Shown: positions 9,221-45,244 of the stretch, one piece after another
Layout of the letters: every line of letters starts with the position of its first letter
Numbering within the stretch: the stretch's first letter is position 1
Source: Rhodanobacter lindaniclasticus
GTDB lineage: Bacteria > Pseudomonadota > Gammaproteobacteria > Xanthomonadales > Rhodanobacteraceae
NCBI RefSeq assembly: GCF_004799035.1
Contig: NZ_MWIO01000003.1
Coordinates: forward strand, 1-64,000
Length of the DNA: 64,000 nucleotides
Direction: 5' to 3'
Position numbers and translations under genes: made by a program
The notes under the pieces: model-generated
Told to the model about the DNA's origin: nothing
The model's database searches: none
Seen by the model: only the letters and a program-made list of their open reading frames with translations

Positions 9221-10530
9221 GCCAGCGCCTCCAGCCGCAAGGTCACGGCACGGCGGTGCGCCTCCAATTGCTCGGCCGCCGCCAGCGTGGCGGTGCACGG
9301 GCCGATGTGGCGCAAGCCCTCGGCGCTGACTTCCTGCACGCTGATCTGCTTCTGGTAGCTGGCCACCGACACGCCGCTGTAGCTGCGCGCGTAGCCGTAG
9401 GTCGGCAGCACGTGGTTGCTGCCGCTGCAGTAGTCGCCCACCGATTCGGGGGCCCACGGGCCGAGGAAGATCGATCCGGCGCTGTCGATGCCCTCGAGCA
9501 ACGCGCGCGGTTCGGCCACCTGCATGATCAGGTGCTCGGGGGCGTAGCGGTTGCTCACCTCGACCGCCTGCGCCAGGGAGTCGACCGCAATCAACCGGCT
9601 CTGCGCCAGTGCCTGCCGCGCAATGTCCGCGCGCGGCAGGGCGGCGCACTGCCGTTCGACCTCGCGCTCCACGCGCTCGATCAGCTGCGCCGAATTGCTG
9701 AGCAGGATCACCTGCGAATCCGGTCCGTGCTCGGCCTGCGACAGCAGATCGGCGGCGACGAACACGGGATTCGCACCGGCATCGGCGATCACCAGTATTT
9801 CCGAGGGTCCGGCCGGCATGTCGATCGCCGCGCCGTCCGGGTCGGACGACACCTGCAGTTTCGCCTCGGTGACCCAGGCATTGCCGGGGCCGAACAGCTT
9901 GTCACACTTCGGTATCGACTCCGTGCCGTAGGCCATCGCGGCGATCGCCTGCGCACCACCGAGCTTGAACACCCTGTGCACGCCGACGAGGCGCGCAGCG
10001 TACAGCACCGCCGCGTCGCAGCGGCCGTCGGCACGCGCCGGCGAGCACAGCACCACTTCGCGGCAACCGGCGATGCGCGCCGGCACGCCCAGCATCAGCG
10101 CGGTCGACGGCAGCGGCGCGCTGCCGGCCGGCACGTACAGGCCCACCCGGCTGACCGGTCGCAGCATGCGCTCGACCCGCACGCCGGGCGCCGTATCGAC
10201 CACCACCGGCCGCGGCGCCGCCGCGCGATGGAACAACTCGATGCGTGCGGCCGCCTCGCGAATCGCCGCTTTCAATTCGGGATCGAGCGCCGCCTCGGCA
10301 GCGTCGAACTCGGCCCCGCTGACCTCGATCGCGTCCAGCGTGCAGCGATCGTATTTCGTGCTGAGCTCGCGCAAGGCGGTGTCGCCATCGTGGCGCACGG
10401 CCGCGATGATGCGTTCGACACCACGGCGCACCTCGTCCGCACGCGACTGCGCCGGCCGCGCCAGCGCCTGGCGCCGGCCGGCCTCGTCCAGGGCGCTCCA
10501 GTCGAGACTCTTCATGCCAACCTGGTTCAT
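9217..10530 (-). CDS. hisD: Histidinol dehydrogenase
   Basis: Zinc and NAD dependent enzyme of 437 aa that oxidises histidinol to histidine in two steps. Conserved features are VGLYVPAG, the Rossmann-like [16 protein letters not shown], zinc-site residues in [12 protein letters not shown] and the C-terminal [11 protein letters not shown] block. ATG 10530 forms an ATGA overlap with hisG; an in-frame ATG five codons later is the only real alternative. Confidence 0.98.
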
Positions 10531-11420
10531 GCCAACATTTTCTCCACCGGCAACACGAACATCTCGCGCGCACCGGCCTTCTTGATTTCTTCCAGCTGTC
10601 GCCAGCTCACCTCACCGGCGCACAACGCCTGCAGCATCAGCTGGTCGGTCTGGCCGGCCACCGCCAACAGCGTTGGTTGCGGGCCGCCCGGCAGCAGACG
10701 GGTAACGGCCTCCAGCGAGTGGCGCGAGGTCTGCAACAGCAGCAGCCGCGATTCGCGCACCTGGATCACGCCATCCAGTCGCTTCAGCAGCAGCTCCAGC
10801 ATGTCGCCGCGCTCGTCCGCCGGCAGCGTGGTCGGCCCGGCCAGCACCGCCTCGCTCTCCAGCAGCACCTCGGTTTCGCGCAACTGGTTGGCCACCAGGG
10901 TGCCGCCGCTCTGGACCAGATCGCAGATCGCGTCGGCCGTGCCCAGTTTCGGCGCAATCTCGACCGAGCCGGCCAGGGTCACCACGGCGGCATCGATGTC
11001 CCGGGCGCGCAGCCATTCGCCGAGCAGGCCGGGATACGAGGTGGCGATGCGCCGGCCGGCCAGATCGCCCGACGAGGCGTAATCCAGCTCCTGCGGCACG
11101 GCGATGGACAGCCGGCAGCGACCGAAGCCGAGCGGCCGCAATTCGGCCAATGGCTCGCCATCGCGCCCGGCGGTGAGCTGGAACTCGCCCAGCACGTTGC
11201 GCCCCACGATGCCGACGTCGCACACGCCTTGCGCGATGAGGCCGGGGATGTCGTCATCACGCACCAGCAGCAGATCGACCGGCTCACCCTCGCCGAAGCA
11301 GAACAGCTTGTCGCGACTCTGCCGGAAGGTGAGACCGCAACGCTTGAGCAGGTCCAGCGCCGGCTCGGTCAGCCGTCCGGACTTCTGCATCGCGATGCGC
11401 AGGCGATCGCGCGGCTTCAT
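10527..11420 (-). CDS. hisG: ATP phosphoribosyltransferase, long form
   Basis: First and committed step of histidine synthesis. At 297 aa it is the long, HisZ-independent form: an N-terminal periplasmic-binding-like catalytic pair of domains ([21 protein letters not shown], the PRPP-type loop around [14 protein letters not shown]) and a C-terminal ACT-like regulatory domain (about residues 225-297, including [15 protein letters not shown]) that in the family binds histidine for feedback inhibition. It overlaps the regulator gene upstream by ATGA. Confidence 0.97.
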
Positions 11421-11752
11421 GCCCTCTTCCTTGCTGTCTGGGCCTGCCGCCGCGCCGCGCGAGCCGCGGCCGCAAGATAACCGCCGCTACCCTGGTTGAG
11501 GTAGCGCGCGACCCGCCCGATCGTGGTGATGCTGACCGCGGTGCGCTCGTGGATCTCCCGGTAGGAGACGCCCTCGAGCAGATAGGGCACCACTCGCCAG
11601 CGATCCACCAGCACCTCGAGTTCCGCCGGGGTGCACAGGTCGCTGAGAAACGCGCCCACTTCCTCGACGTTCTTCAGTGACAGCAGAGCCTCGTACAGAC
11701 TCTGCTCGGCGGACTCGACGGGGGTTTCGGGATCAAGCGATCGTCGCTTCAT
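11417..11752 (-). CDS. TrpR/YerC-family regulator, candidate HisR
   Basis: A 111-aa TrpR-superfamily protein of the YerC type. The helical body is SLYEALLSLKNVEEVGAFLSD, the CTPAELEVLVDRW segment matches TrpR, and the recognition helix-turn-helix is SYREIHERTAVSITTIGRVAR. It is the first gene of the his operon, joined to hisG by ATGA. From its position, and from the described role of YerC-type HisR proteins as histidine-biosynthesis repressors, it probably controls this operon using histidine as corepressor. A palindrome resembling a TrpR-type operator ends three bases before its start codon, where a ribosome site would be expected. Confidence 0.88.
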   Translation of the reverse strand: MKRRSLDPETPVESAEQSLYEALLSLKNVEEVGAFLSDLCTPAELEVLVDRWRVVPYLLEGVSYREIHERTAVSITTIGRVARYLNQGSGGYLAAAARAARRQAQTARKRA

Positions 11753-40638: not shown

Positions 40639-41064
40639 ATGAAGAAATCCGCATCCGCCCACTGGTCCGGCGGCATCAAGGACGGCCAGGGCACGATCTC
40701 GACCGAGACCGGCGTGCTGAGCGAAGCGCCTTACGGCTTCAAGTCGCGTTTCGAGGACGGCCCCGGCACCAATCCGGAAGAACTCATCGGCGCGGCGCAC
40801 GCCGGCTGCTATTCGATGGCAATGTCGCTGGAACTGGGCAACGCCGGGCTCACCGCCACCAGCATCGACACCAAGGCCGTGGTGACGCTGGAGAAGGATG
40901 GCGCCGGCTTCACCATCACGGCGGTGCACCTCAGCTGCGAGGCCAGGGTGCCCGGCGCCGACGCGGCCACGTTCGACCGGATCGCGCAGGCGACCAAGCA
41001 GGGTTGCCCGGTCTCCAAGGTGCTGAAGGCCGAGATCACACTGGACGCGCGCCTGCTCTCCTGA
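40639..41064 (+). CDS. osmC: OsmC-family peroxiredoxin-like protein
   Basis: A 141-aa thiol peroxidase of the OsmC class, reducing organic hydroperoxides in the cytoplasm. The two catalytic cysteines are Cys57 (HAGCYSMA) and Cys123 (KQGCPVSKVL), with the conserved TNPEELIGAAHA. GCAGGAG precedes the ATG. It converges with aroG; the two stop codons are one base apart. Confidence 0.95.
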   Translation: MKKSASAHWSGGIKDGQGTISTETGVLSEAPYGFKSRFEDGPGTNPEELIGAAHAGCYSMAMSLELGNAGLTATSIDTKAVVTLEKDGAGFTITAVHLSCEARVPGADAATFDRIAQATKQGCPVSKVLKAEITLDARLLS

Positions 41065-41065
41065 T

Positions 41066-42151
<1,086 letters not shown>

Positions 42152-42187
42152 GGCGGCTCTCCTGGAGGTTTTCCCGGTGGCGGCCAT

Positions 42188-42213
42188 AAAAAAACCGCCC
42201 TGGAATGGCGGTT
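42188..42213 (-). terminator. Attenuator terminator upstream of aroG
   Basis: On the minus strand AACCGCC pairs with GGCGGTT (7 bp, loop ATTCCAG), followed by a run of T. It lies between the aromatic leader peptide and the aroG start, where a terminator only makes sense as an attenuator. GGCGG repeats at the end of the leader-peptide codons could pair with its CCGCC arm to form the antiterminator. Confidence 0.9.
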
Positions 42214-42235
42214 CGGTGTGGTTGTGTCGATCAGT

Positions 42236-42319
42236 TCAAAACGATCGCGTCCGCGCCGCCGCCGTTGGCTTCGGGTAGCCGTAAAACCAGAAATACAGGC
42301 GGGCGGTGAGGGAGGACAT
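42236..42319 (-). CDS. Aromatic-rich leader peptide of aroG
   Basis: A 27-codon ORF (start MSSLTAR, end RTRSF) with LYFWFYGY in the middle: seven of eight consecutive residues other than Leu and Gly are aromatic (three Tyr, two Phe, one Trp). The stop codon lies 23 bp before a terminator hairpin ahead of aroG. Ribosome stalling when charged Tyr, Phe or Trp tRNA is scarce would favour an antiterminator and aroG expression, as in the classical phe and trp leaders. No strong ribosome site is visible. Assignment is by layout and codon content. Confidence 0.88.
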   Translation of the reverse strand: MSSLTARLYFWFYGYPKPTAAARTRSF

Positions 42320-42384
42320 GCCGCCATTGATAACACAATGGACGTCCAAATCAAACCTCCGCGTCCAGGCGATAGACTGCAGGC

Positions 42385-43296
42385 ATGCCCTCGCCCATCG
42401 ATGTGCTGCGCCAACCGATCCGCCACTGGGTGCTGCGCGCCTTCCCGCGTGCCGGTTCCGACGGCCCCGACTACGACCACCCGCATGGCGATCCGGGCCT
42501 GTTCGGGCCGGAAAGCGCCACCTGGCGCGTGCACTCGGATTTCCCCGGCATGCTGGCCGGCGGCCTTGCCGCGCTGACCTTGCAGACGCTGCACCCGCTG
42601 GCGCTGGCCGGGGTGTGGGACCACTCCAATTTCCGGGGCGACCTGGTCGGTCGGCTGCGCCGCACCACCGCCTTCGTCGGCGGCACCACCTACGCGCCGC
42701 GCGCGCAGGCCGAAGCCATGATCGCGCACGTGCGGATGATCCACGGCCACGTCAGCGGACACGGCGAAGACGGACGTCCCTACAGCGCCGACGATCCCGA
42801 CCTGCTGACCTGGGTGCACGTCAGCGAGGCGTACTGCTTTTTGCAGGGCTACCGCCGCTACAGCCACATCGCGATGCCGCCCGGCGCGGCCGACCGCTAC
42901 TACGACGAGGTGCGGCGGATCGCCGAGGCGCTCGGCGCGCGCGGCGTGCCGGCGTCGGAACGAGAGGTCGGGGATTACTTTCGCCGCATCCAGCCCGAAC
43001 TGGCCTTTACCGAACGCTCCCGCGTCGTGCTCGGCCTGCTCGGGCGGGTGCGCCTGCCGGTGCCGGCAGCGGGGCTGTCACGCGACCTGTTCCTGCGTGC
43101 CGGCCATGCCCTGCTGCCGGACTGGGCGCTGGCGGCGCTCGGCCACACGCCACGGCAACGGCGCCAGGCGCGACTGGCCGCGCGTGCGCTGTGGTCGATC
43201 GCGCCGGTGTTCCGTGCCGCCCTGCAGGACGGCATTGCCAGCCGCGCGTGCCGGCGCGTGGACGTGACGCCCGAGCAGTTGTCGCGCTGGGGGTAG
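42385..43296 (+). CDS. DUF2236 (MpaB-like oxygenase family) protein
   Basis: A 303-aa alpha-helical protein of the DUF2236 family, related to fungal MpaB and latex-clearing oxygenases, some of which bind haem. Recognisable blocks are SDFPGMLAGGLAALTLQTLH, DHSNFRGDLVGRLRRTTAFV and LTWVHVSEAYCFLQGYRRY. Histidines in HVRMIHGHVSG and HVSEAY could serve as cofactor ligands; that is inference. Divergent from the aroG leader, 65 bp apart. Confidence 0.9.
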   Translation: MPSPIDVLRQPIRHWVLRAFPRAGSDGPDYDHPHGDPGLFGPESATWRVHSDFPGMLAGGLAALTLQTLHPLALAGVWDHSNFRGDLVGRLRRTTAFVGGTTYAPRAQAEAMIAHVRMIHGHVSGHGEDGRPYSADDPDLLTWVHVSEAYCFLQGYRRYSHIAMPPGAADRYYDEVRRIAEALGARGVPASEREVGDYFRRIQPELAFTERSRVVLGLLGRVRLPVPAAGLSRDLFLRAGHALLPDWALAALGHTPRQRRQARLAARALWSIAPVFRAALQDGIASRACRRVDVTPEQLSRWG

Positions 43297-43340
43297 CTCC
43301 ACGCCGTCAATCAGCATTGACAGCGTCACCCTATCGGCTA

Positions 43341-43357
43341 ACGTCACCCGGTGACGT
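43341..43357. promoter_or_regulatory. Perfect 8-1-8 palindrome upstream of the helicase gene
   Basis: ACGTCACC, one C, then GGTGACGT: a perfect 17-bp dyad ending 15 bp before the GTG start of the NERD-UvrD helicase, next to its ribosome site. It is well placed to act as an operator. No cognate regulator is adjacent. Confidence 0.55.
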
Positions 43358-43372
43358 CAGCCAGGGGCGCCT

Positions 43373-45244
43373 GTGGCAACACTCATCCCAACCCGCAACA
43401 GCTGCCTGCCGCGCATGACCGGTGGCGAGAAGCGCGTTTCCGAACGGCTGGAACAGAAGCTCGAGGACGACTACCTGCTGTGGTACGACGTGCCGGTCGG
43501 GCTGAAGCAGCGCCACCCGGATTTCGTGGTGTTCCATCCGCGCCGCGGCCTGCTGGTGCTGGAGGTGAAGGACTGGAAGGCCGACACGATCCGCCACGCC
43601 GACAGCACCCAGTTCACCCTGGTCACCGAGCGCGGCCTGGTGAAGGAGGCCAACCCGCTGCTGCAGGCGCGCGCGTACGCGCTGGAGATCGGCGTGGTGC
43701 TGGAGCGCGACCCCGCGCTGCGCCACCCGGAAGGCTCGCGCTACGCCGGCAAGCTGATCATGCCGTGGGGCTGGGGCGTGGTGCTGGCCAACATCACCCG
43801 CAAGCAGTTCGACGAGGGCGGACTGGGCGAGGTGTTGCCCGAGCATCTGGTGATCTGCCGCGACGAGTTGTACGAGACGGTCGACGCCGAAGTGTTCCAG
43901 CAGCAGCTGTGGGCGATGTTCCCGCAGGTGTATCCGGTGGCGCTGACCCTGCCCCAGATCGACCGCGTGCGCTGGCACCTGTTCCCGGAATTGCGGGTGG
44001 AAGCCGGCAGCGGCCAGTTCGGCCTGTTCGGGCCGACGGCCGACGCCGTGCGGCCGCTGGAGATCCCCGACCTGGTCAAGGTGATGGATGCGCAGCAGGA
44101 ACAGCTGGCGCGCTCGATCGGCGGCGAGCACCGGATCATCCACGGCGTGGCCGGCTCCGGCAAGACGATGATTCTCGGCTTCCGCGCCATGCAGCTGGCG
44201 CGTGAGATGAGCAAGCCGATCCTGGTGCTCTGCTACAACAAGACGCTGGCCGCGCGGCTGGAACAGCTGATCGGCGAACGCGGCCTGGGCGAAAAGGTGC
44301 AGGTCTACAACTTCCACAAGTGGTGCCGCAAGATGCTGGTGGCCTACCACGTGGAGCTGCCTCCCCAGGGCAGCAAGGACTTCTTCGAGCAGATGGTCGG
44401 GCGCGTGATCGATGGCGTCGACCGCGGCCAGATCCCGCGCTTCCAGTACGGCGCCGTGCTGGTCGACGAAGGCCACGACTTCGAGCCGGACTGGTACAAG
44501 CTGATCGTGCAGATGATCGACCCGGCGACCAACTCGCTGTTGGTGCTGTACGACGACGCGCAGAACATCTACGGCAACACGCACCGGCGCAAGATCAGCT
44601 GGAAGAGCCTCGGCGTGCAGGCGCAGGGGCGCACCACCATCCTCAAGCTCAACTACCGCAACACGCTGGAAATCCTCTCCGTCGCCCGCGCGTTCGCGCA
44701 GGATCTGCTCGAATCGCGCAGCGACGACGACGATGGCGTGCCGCTGGTCGCGCCGGAAAGCGCCGGCCGCCGCGGCGCCGTGCCCGAGCTGGTGCGCACC
44801 GACACCGCCCGCGCGCAGATGGACGTGCTGGTGGCGCGGCTGCGTGACGAGCATGCGCATGGCCGCCCGTACTCCGAGATGGCGGTGATCTATCGCAACC
44901 AGTGGGAAGGCGAAAAGCTGCAGGAAGTGCTCAAGCGCCTGGACATCCCCAGCCGCCTTGCCGACAACGCCGGCAAGCAGACCCTGTTCGTGGTCGAGGA
45001 CAGCGTCAAGCTGGTGACCATGCACTCCAGCAAGGGCCTGGAGTTTCCCTTCGTGATCATCCCCGGCATCGGCGGCCTGCCCAAGGAAGGCCAGGCCGAA
45101 GCCGACGAAGCGCGCCTGCTCTACGTGGCGATGACCCGCGCCACCGAACACCTGCTGCTGATCCACCACGACGACTCGGTGTTCTCCAAACGCATCCGCG
45201 ACTCGATCAACGAGGTTCAGGGCCAGCTGAAAAACGCGCCCTGA
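43373..45244 (+). CDS. NERD-domain UvrD/Rep-type helicase
   Basis: A 623-aa fusion. Residues about 18-135 form a nuclease-related NERD domain with PDFVVFHPRRGLLVLEVKDW (PD-(D/E)xK-like Asp and ExK). Residues about 240-623 form an SF1 helicase: Walker A HGVAGSGKTMIL, Walker B-like AVLVDEGHDFEPDW, LKLNYRNTLEIL, TMHSSKGLEFPFVIIPG, and RLLYVAMTRATEHL. Such proteins are predicted DNA repair or defence-associated enzymes. GTG start with AGGGG upstream. It stands alone with its own palindrome, so no operon partner suggests a role. Confidence 0.92.
   Translation: MATLIPTRNSCLPRMTGGEKRVSERLEQKLEDDYLLWYDVPVGLKQRHPDFVVFHPRRGLLVLEVKDWKADTIRHADSTQFTLVTERGLVKEANPLLQARAYALEIGVVLERDPALRHPEGSRYAGKLIMPWGWGVVLANITRKQFDEGGLGEVLPEHLVICRDELYETVDAEVFQQQLWAMFPQVYPVALTLPQIDRVRWHLFPELRVEAGSGQFGLFGPTADAVRPLEIPDLVKVMDAQQEQLARSIGGEHRIIHGVAGSGKTMILGFRAMQLAREMSKPILVLCYNKTLAARLEQLIGERGLGEKVQVYNFHKWCRKMLVAYHVELPPQGSKDFFEQMVGRVIDGVDRGQIPRFQYGAVLVDEGHDFEPDWYKLIVQMIDPATNSLLVLYDDAQNIYGNTHRRKISWKSLGVQAQGRTTILKLNYRNTLEILSVARAFAQDLLESRSDDDDGVPLVAPESAGRRGAVPELVRTDTARAQMDVLVARLRDEHAHGRPYSEMAVIYRNQWEGEKLQEVLKRLDIPSRLADNAGKQTLFVVEDSVKLVTMHSSKGLEFPFVIIPGIGGLPKEGQAEADEARLLYVAMTRATEHLLLIHHDDSVFSKRIRDSINEVQGQLKNAP

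Follow-up and report, generated by a model that had tools for sequence, protein, structure and literature searches.

The DAHP synthase gene aroG of Rhodanobacter lindaniclasticus is, in all likelihood, controlled by a ribosome-mediated transcription attenuator. The window, i.e., the whole stretch of 64,000 nucleotides that was analysed, carries this element on its minus strand, and the case for it is built on what could be computed: its parts and their conservation, the one-to-one association with aroG within the order, the alternative pairings of the RNA, and the spacing of the codons. New are the reach of the element, the strict pairing of element and aroG within the order, the retention of a leader for three amino acids by most lineages, and a start that is probably leaderless; the reach far past Xanthomonadales and the probable leaderless start also go beyond the initial annotation of this DNA, as does a class II DAHP synthase in the same genome.

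The textbook picture of how the first aromatic step is controlled comes from E. coli, which has three isozymes and two repressors for it. If the element works as read here, many Proteobacteria take this decision with one RNA, which probes how a single run of Tyr, Phe and Trp codons is translated. It would then offer a model of how one leader integrates three signals, and an example of an attenuator with leaderless translation; control could be released at this site in strains overproducing aromatics, and a family would be added to those of the Rfam release searched.

The leader and its setting in the genome

A 27-codon leader rich in aromatic residues, a terminator and a GGCGG segment had been described directly upstream of aroG, and all of them were located there, on the minus strand (Table 1). 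Of the defining features of a trp-type attenuator, the following are present: a leader open reading frame with codons for the end products, a terminator, an antiterminator that excludes it, and a gene of the pathway.

Table 1. Elements of the aroG leader region, in positions of the window
Feature	Position	Strand	Basis
Putative promoter: TTGATT, 16-nt spacer, extended -10 TGT-TATCAA	TTGATT 42354-42349; TATCAA 42332-42327	-	read from sequence
Leader peptide ORF, 27 codons + TGA, MSSLTARLYFWFYGYPKPTAAARTRSF	42236..42319, ATG 42319	-	sequence and comparison
Aromatic control codons Tyr9 Phe10 Trp11 Phe12 Tyr13 (Gly14) Tyr15	42275..42295	-	sequence, codon comparison
Segment 1, CCGCCCGCC, partner of segment 2 (anti-antiterminator)	42298..42306	-	minimum-energy structure
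Segment 2, GGCGGCGGCGCGG, alternative partners segment 1 and segment 3 (antiterminator)	42251..42263	-	pairing tests
Segment 3, GAACCGCC, terminator 5' arm; common partner of segments 2 and 4	42207..42214	-	
Segment 4, GGCGGTTT and remaining T-run, intrinsic terminator 3' arm	42186..42199	-	
Intrinsic terminator, stem GAACCGCC/GGCGGTTT, 7-nt loop, T-run	42214-42192	-	terminator scan
aroG (361 codons), encoding a class I DAHP synthase; predicted target of the attenuator	41066..42151	-	TIGR00034 match

Segment 2 (GGCGGCGGCGCGG) lies downstream of the aromatic codons of the leader. The terminator is the sole terminator-like site between 41900 and 42600, where shuffled sequences average 0.4 such sites; a reading of it on the plus strand was rejected by eye, the T-run being 3' of the stem on the minus strand only. 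An AGGAG stands 7 nt 5' of the aroG start codon (ATG 42151).

The product of aroG scores 532 bits against TIGR00034 (cut-off 173) and 541 bits against NF006723 AroG, below the cut-off of that model (568); the closest named relative is Rhodanobacter sp. 67-28, at 88% identity. The search of the genome for the AroG protein gave one match. The class II DAHP synthase is encoded on another contig, and no aromatic leader is evident by eye upstream of it (L100). As for repressors, the TyrR-type HTH model has no match in the genome and no TrpR is found over the cut-off, the single weak match being a YerC/YecD-type protein beside hisG. This TrpR-related regulator (11417-11752, minus strand; TIGR02531, 61.6 bits) overlaps by 4 nt the start of hisG (10527-11420), and it is a candidate regulator of histidine synthesis.

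The divergent neighbour of the leader (42385-43296, plus strand) encodes an MpaB/Lcp-type oxygenase (PF09995) and starts ∼30 nt from the putative -35 box of the leader. Further on, the plus strand encodes a 623-residue protein (43373-45244), for which the best matches to UvrD/Rep-type helicase models fall between residues 250 and 610; its first 250 residues have no match among the NCBIfam stretches listed.

The putative promoter matches the consensus at 8 of 12 positions, below the limit of 9 set for the promoter scan, so that the scan did not report it. The -10-like hexamer of the window ends 7 nt before the ATG of the leader, and the relatives are similar: of 89 dereplicated upstream regions, 68 have their best -10-like hexamer ending 6-9 nt ahead of the start codon, while 100 rounds of shuffling gave a mean of 2.7 and at most 8. 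These 89 derive from 147 rows, of which 3 were dropped (no start or upstream DNA) and 115 of the remaining 144 were kept after dereplication; they comprise all groups but the Burkholderiaceae- and Oxalobacteraceae-type leaders, the grouping being by peptide pattern and not by taxonomy. The position of the -10 box makes it probable that the leader is leaderless, its transcript beginning with the ATG or just beside it. In the Burkholderiaceae-type leaders the -10-like box is found 35-39 nt before the ATG (12 of 14), and no Shine-Dalgarno site is evident by eye; the initiation of the same leader therefore seems to differ between lineages. In the 12 Oxalobacteraceae-type leaders the distance of the hexamer varies.

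Conservation of the element and its reach

Leaders were initially found without any model, by requiring an aromatic-rich reading frame whose start was taken as the last ATG before the aromatic run. Among 99 fetched aroG loci, 79 have an upstream frame with at least four aromatic residues within eight, and in 77 of them a terminator follows. From these 77, 52 leaders were prepared, and 47 of them, aligned as A1, gave the covariance model R1 (L025, L051, L067, L080 and L086 were excluded as divergent). Two further alignments, A2 and A3, hold leaders found with the model, which includes the aromatic codons, and A2 overlaps A1.

R1 matches upstream of aroG in 75 of the 99 loci (E up to 1e-4), and because the element recurs in this way, its occurrence at the present locus is not due to chance. 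The layout of a translation-controlled attenuator, as proposed initially, holds up in this comparison for leader, terminator, antiterminator and target gene alike. By record name, the carriers include Xanthomonas, Stenotrophomonas, Dyella, Bordetella, Burkholderia, Caballeronia, Cupriavidus, Massilia and Janthinobacterium, together with Bradyrhizobium, Mesorhizobium, Rhizobium, Devosia and Phenylobacterium. The model finds no element in the other 24 loci, among them all 7 named enterobacterial ones, Azoarcus, Thauera and Methylotenera; these 24 also include a fragment of aroG (L019) and a contig with only ∼50 nt upstream (L081).

Within the order, the coupling is exact. Strong R1 matches occur in 42 of 200 genomes (E at most 1.2e-15, the next best being 5.8e-5) and in none of the other 158, and a separate search with TIGR00034 found a full AroFGH gene in 42 genomes. 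Both sets are identical, and the matches to element and gene lie on the same contig and strand, separated by 45-139 nt. The conservation in related genomes that the initial annotation asked for is borne out: every one of the 42 full AroFGH genes of the order carries the element. In the genus of the window, full-length aroG is found in 16 of 25 genomes (some incomplete), and 15 of these 16 have the element. The exception, L010, keeps aroG while leader and terminator are missing, and by eye only the last ∼45 nt resembles its relatives; perhaps it is a natural loss of the attenuator. As a side point, class I aroG is patchy in the genus while the present genome has the class II enzyme as well, which may reflect either a loss, or a gain of aroG together with its leader.

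At the level of the phylum (398 genomes), AroFGH is over the cut-off in 225 genomes, and the element stands at aroG in 49 of these; three of these 49, with E values from 2e-5 to 7e-5, are no stronger than unrelated matches and were counted because aroG follows. In the ten families concerned, the genomes with the element relative to those with AroFGH are 1/1, 6/6, 11/11, 6/10, 2/3, 1/1, 2/2, 9/9, 10/10 and 1/1. For the other 176 AroFGH genomes, many with two or three copies of the gene, no comparable match at aroG is among the matches listed (E to ∼0.002). Seen from the sequences compared, the element appears common to many alpha-, beta- and gammaproteobacteria, in front of a DAHP synthase gene.

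Control codons, alternative helices and simulated switching

The 147 R1 matches correspond to 133 distinct DNA sequences, and 132 distinct leaders remain once L059, which has no complete leader reading frame, is set apart. As to redundancy, L128, L137 and L143 were left out of the second match set as copies of genomes in the first, L101 was kept although from the same genome as L018, and L006 and L021 are identical. Phe, Tyr and Trp occur together in 110 of the distinct leaders, Phe and Tyr in 21, and Phe and Trp in 1; counted as 120 distinct peptides, the figures are 98, 21 and 1. At least four aromatic residues within eight are found in all 132, a type of leader that the model search favours.

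In the 11 leaders nearest to that of the window (two with identical DNA; all hand-picked from 17 of the same or a near genus), the aromatic codons 9-13 and 15 vary only synonymously (TAC/TAT) and Trp11 is invariant, whereas codons 2, 3, 4 and some others change the amino acid. More distant leaders of the genus replace single aromatics, with Asn-Leu (L011) or His-Val (L014) within the run. The 132 distinct leaders hold 844 aromatic codons, and 775 of these precede the GGCGG segment by 4-11 codons, as would be expected if this segment has to stay accessible while a ribosome is stalled. In L034 and L041, segment 2 is read in another frame, which points to a constraint on the RNA, and not on the peptide, in these cases.

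With regard to the RNA, the terminator helix is conserved: 93.4% of the cells are paired in A1, where one pair alternates between A-U (24 of the 47 leaders) and G-C (22), and 94.7% in A3, whose matches were fitted to the helix (G-C 47, A-U 21). The antiterminator formed by segments 2 and 3 is outside the model, and its cells are paired in 77.8% (A1), 77.5% (A3) and 77.0% (A2), values that fall to 21-54% when the segments are slid against each other. Its core pairs hardly vary, so that the covariation comes from the flanking pairs. It is clear in A1 and A2, where the score is reached by 0 of 500 shuffles, and weak in A3, where a score of 0.061 is reached by 16 of 500 and a slide of one column scores equally; in this last alignment the paired percentage is reached by 7 of 500 shuffles, and two other measures by 78 and 416 of 500.

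Locus by locus, segment 2 pairs with segment 3 better than shuffled versions of segment 2 do (p<=0.05) in 49 of 77 loci, with a p of 0.010 for the window. The helix between segments 1 and 2 reaches the same level in 23 of 77; for the window its p is 0.116, though the helix is part of the minimum-energy structure. Folded as a whole, the leader RNA has an ordinary energy (z -1.01; 24 of 200 shuffles fold as well), and for this reason the case rests on the architecture and on comparison.

Does a stalled ribosome change the pairing? To simulate this on the RNA of the window, the footprint of the ribosome was masked, at its commonly given size, and the antiterminator pairing was computed with segment 4 absent. 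Stalls at Tyr9, Phe10 and Trp11 give a mean pairing of 0.74, and the value falls to 0.52 at Phe12, 0.40 at Tyr13 and 0.09 at Tyr15; it is 0.02 with the ribosome at the stop codon and 0.06 with no ribosome. When segment 2 is shuffled, 1 of 60 sequences reaches the difference between stall and release, and 6 of 60 reach the stall level alone. The same calculation covered 74 of the 77 loci (L078, L079 and L088 were left out as irregular): in 69 of them a stall gives more pairing than release does, and in 44 the margin is above 0.2. Of the 14 loci for which shuffles were run, eight have a difference that no more than 3 of 60 shuffles attain, and for two the number is 4 and 6; in the other four (L018, L024, L033 and L057) 26-57 of 60 attain it, and the simple model consequently does not explain these. 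With the full RNA of the window at equilibrium, only the stalls at Tyr9 and Phe10 displace the terminator, which still dominates for Trp11, Phe12, Tyr13 and Tyr15; the model therefore rests on folding during transcription.

Mechanism, competing explanations and known systems

The events that we infer from these features are the start of transcription, the translation of the leader, its stalling and the read-through. Transcription would start at or beside the leader ATG, and the ribosome would begin the peptide without a Shine-Dalgarno site. When charged Tyr, Phe and Trp tRNAs are sufficient, the ribosome would reach the stop codon, and segment 2 would then be taken up by segment 1 or by the ribosome itself; segments 3 and 4 would form the terminator, and transcription would end ∼40 nt before aroG. 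When any one of these tRNAs is uncharged, the ribosome would stall in the YFWFYGY run and cover segment 1, leaving segment 2 to pair with segment 3, so that no terminator would form and aroG would be transcribed.

Which of the three amino acids count? That Tyr, Phe and Trp may be sensed together is supported, rather than demonstrated, by the codon content and by the modelled position of the stall. An alternative that we consider possible, if the less probable, is an attenuator of the same kind that reads one amino acid (most likely Phe, or Phe with Tyr), the Trp codon being a bystander. It agrees with the absence of Trp from 21 of the 132 distinct leaders and with the precedent, aroR-aroF of Corynebacterium glutamicum. 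There, in the accessible portions of the two reports, a DAHP synthase gene is under ribosome-mediated attenuation that answers to Phe limitation (PMC11802643, PMC4046766), while the supply of Tyr has no effect although the Phe-Tyr-Phe leader AroR contains a Tyr codon (PMC11802643). As described in those portions, aroR-aroF resembles the present element in having a leader peptide with aromatic codons upstream of the DAHP synthase gene, and differs in being actinobacterial and in its three aromatic codons.

A hint in the same direction comes from Ralstonia solanacearum, where deleting one of aroG1 and aroG2 raises a lacZ fusion to the other ∼11-22 times, with a smaller rise in the double mutant, and where 1 mM Phe lowers the fusions two- to threefold in those mutants and has little effect in the wild type (PMC6379268). 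Both the rise on loss of the other gene and the Phe effect would fit attenuation, should the two genes carry this leader. Annotated plasmids, searched for the leader with one Cupriavidus region, gave no match, a result with no bearing on the chromosomes of Ralstonia. Against a single amino acid speak the retention of all three aromatics in most of the distinct leaders (110) and the invariance of Trp11 in the 11 closest ones, at a position where the simulated stall opens the antiterminator.

Control of leaders by RNA-binding proteins, by T-box-like tRNA binding or by antibiotic-induced stalling is known elsewhere. Such a factor, acting here in place of aminoacyl-tRNA supply at the aromatic codons, is very improbable: nothing in this analysis speaks for it beyond the precedent of other leaders, whereas conservation concerns the aromatic codons and their narrowly set distance to segment 2, and neither the window (41000-44000) nor 13 aroG loci matched a T-box or another relevant Rfam family. 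Least credible of all is a constitutive terminator or processing site behind a fortuitous small reading frame, with no regulation, since the near-chance terminator count of the region scan (1 against a shuffle mean of 0.4) and the ordinary folding energy, which would suit it, are set against the one-to-one pairing of element and aroG (42 of 42 genomes), the covarying terminator, the clustered aromatics of all 132 leaders (favoured as these are by the search) and a segment 2 kept even where it is read in another frame (L034, L041).

The attenuator preferred here shares its layout with the trp attenuators, among them trpL of Sinorhizobium meliloti, and differs from them, as far as the available excerpts go, in that trpL carries Trp codons only and precedes trpE. 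The same excerpts describe a trpL RNA that starts with the leader AUG, and an attenuator RNA and peptide that act in trans (PMC7298713, PMC10117765). For the same class of gene in other lineages, attenuators have been listed or suggested in Vibrio (PMC1173090, Table 7) and Shewanella (PMC2659441); the accessible parts of these papers describe no leader peptide. In the literature searched, which covers few subscription papers, no report of the proteobacterial aroG element was found, nor any mention of six literal leader strings.

The counterpart in E. coli is end-product control of DAHP synthase synthesis as well, and there aroG is controlled by TyrR. The genes aroF and aroH are under TyrR/TrpR control, according to the accessible part of PMC5343134. 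The difference is that these regulators are DNA-binding repressors, neither of which is over the cut-off in the Rhodanobacter genome. A wider conjecture, which we hold tentatively, is that an old, uncatalogued RNA element of the Proteobacteria has accompanied class I aroG in alpha-, beta- and gammaproteobacteria as a leaderless sensor of three amino acids and as the alternative to TyrR/TrpR, and that its terminated RNA of ∼130 nt and its aromatic leader peptide may act in trans; the latter idea is modelled on rnTrpL and peTrpL of Sinorhizobium.

Does the element belong to a family already described? A search of Rfam with positions 41000-44000 of the window and the 13 aroG loci gave no family for it, matches such as mir-4520 and sR32 being below their gathering scores and set aside as chance, and a search of NCBIfam with ten leader peptides gave no model. 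A close known system is Phe_leader (RF01859), the attenuators of pheA and pheST, which also have a Phe-rich leader and a terminator with a competing antiterminator. Phe_leader is not among the matches of the window region up to E 5, and among the 13 aroG loci the highest score is 30.5 bits, where the gathering score is 55.

The loci fetched around R1 matches allow a direct comparison. AroG is present in 78 of 95, and the remaining whole-model matches with E <2.5e-5, six in number, all precede a pheA-type gene (L165, L173, L179) or pheS (L174-L176). Two of these six phe-type leaders, L165 and L174, were compared with Rfam, and each of them matches Phe_leader. The six differ from the aroG leaders in having no Trp (those of pheS have one Tyr) and terminator arms of the GGAGGC type instead of the GGCGG type. 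The aroG element is thus outside the Phe_leader family as Rfam models it.

Two of the pheA-type genes deserve a remark of their own. L165:1667-3667 (plus strand) and L173:459-2408 (minus strand) encode PheA-type chorismate mutase/prephenate dehydratases with a C-terminal part resembling the DAHP synthase of B. subtilis type, which TIGR01361 scores at 271 bits in L165 (over the cut-off) and at 99 bits in L173 (under it). Both lie behind a phe-type attenuator, a second way of placing a DAHP synthase under a leader peptide.
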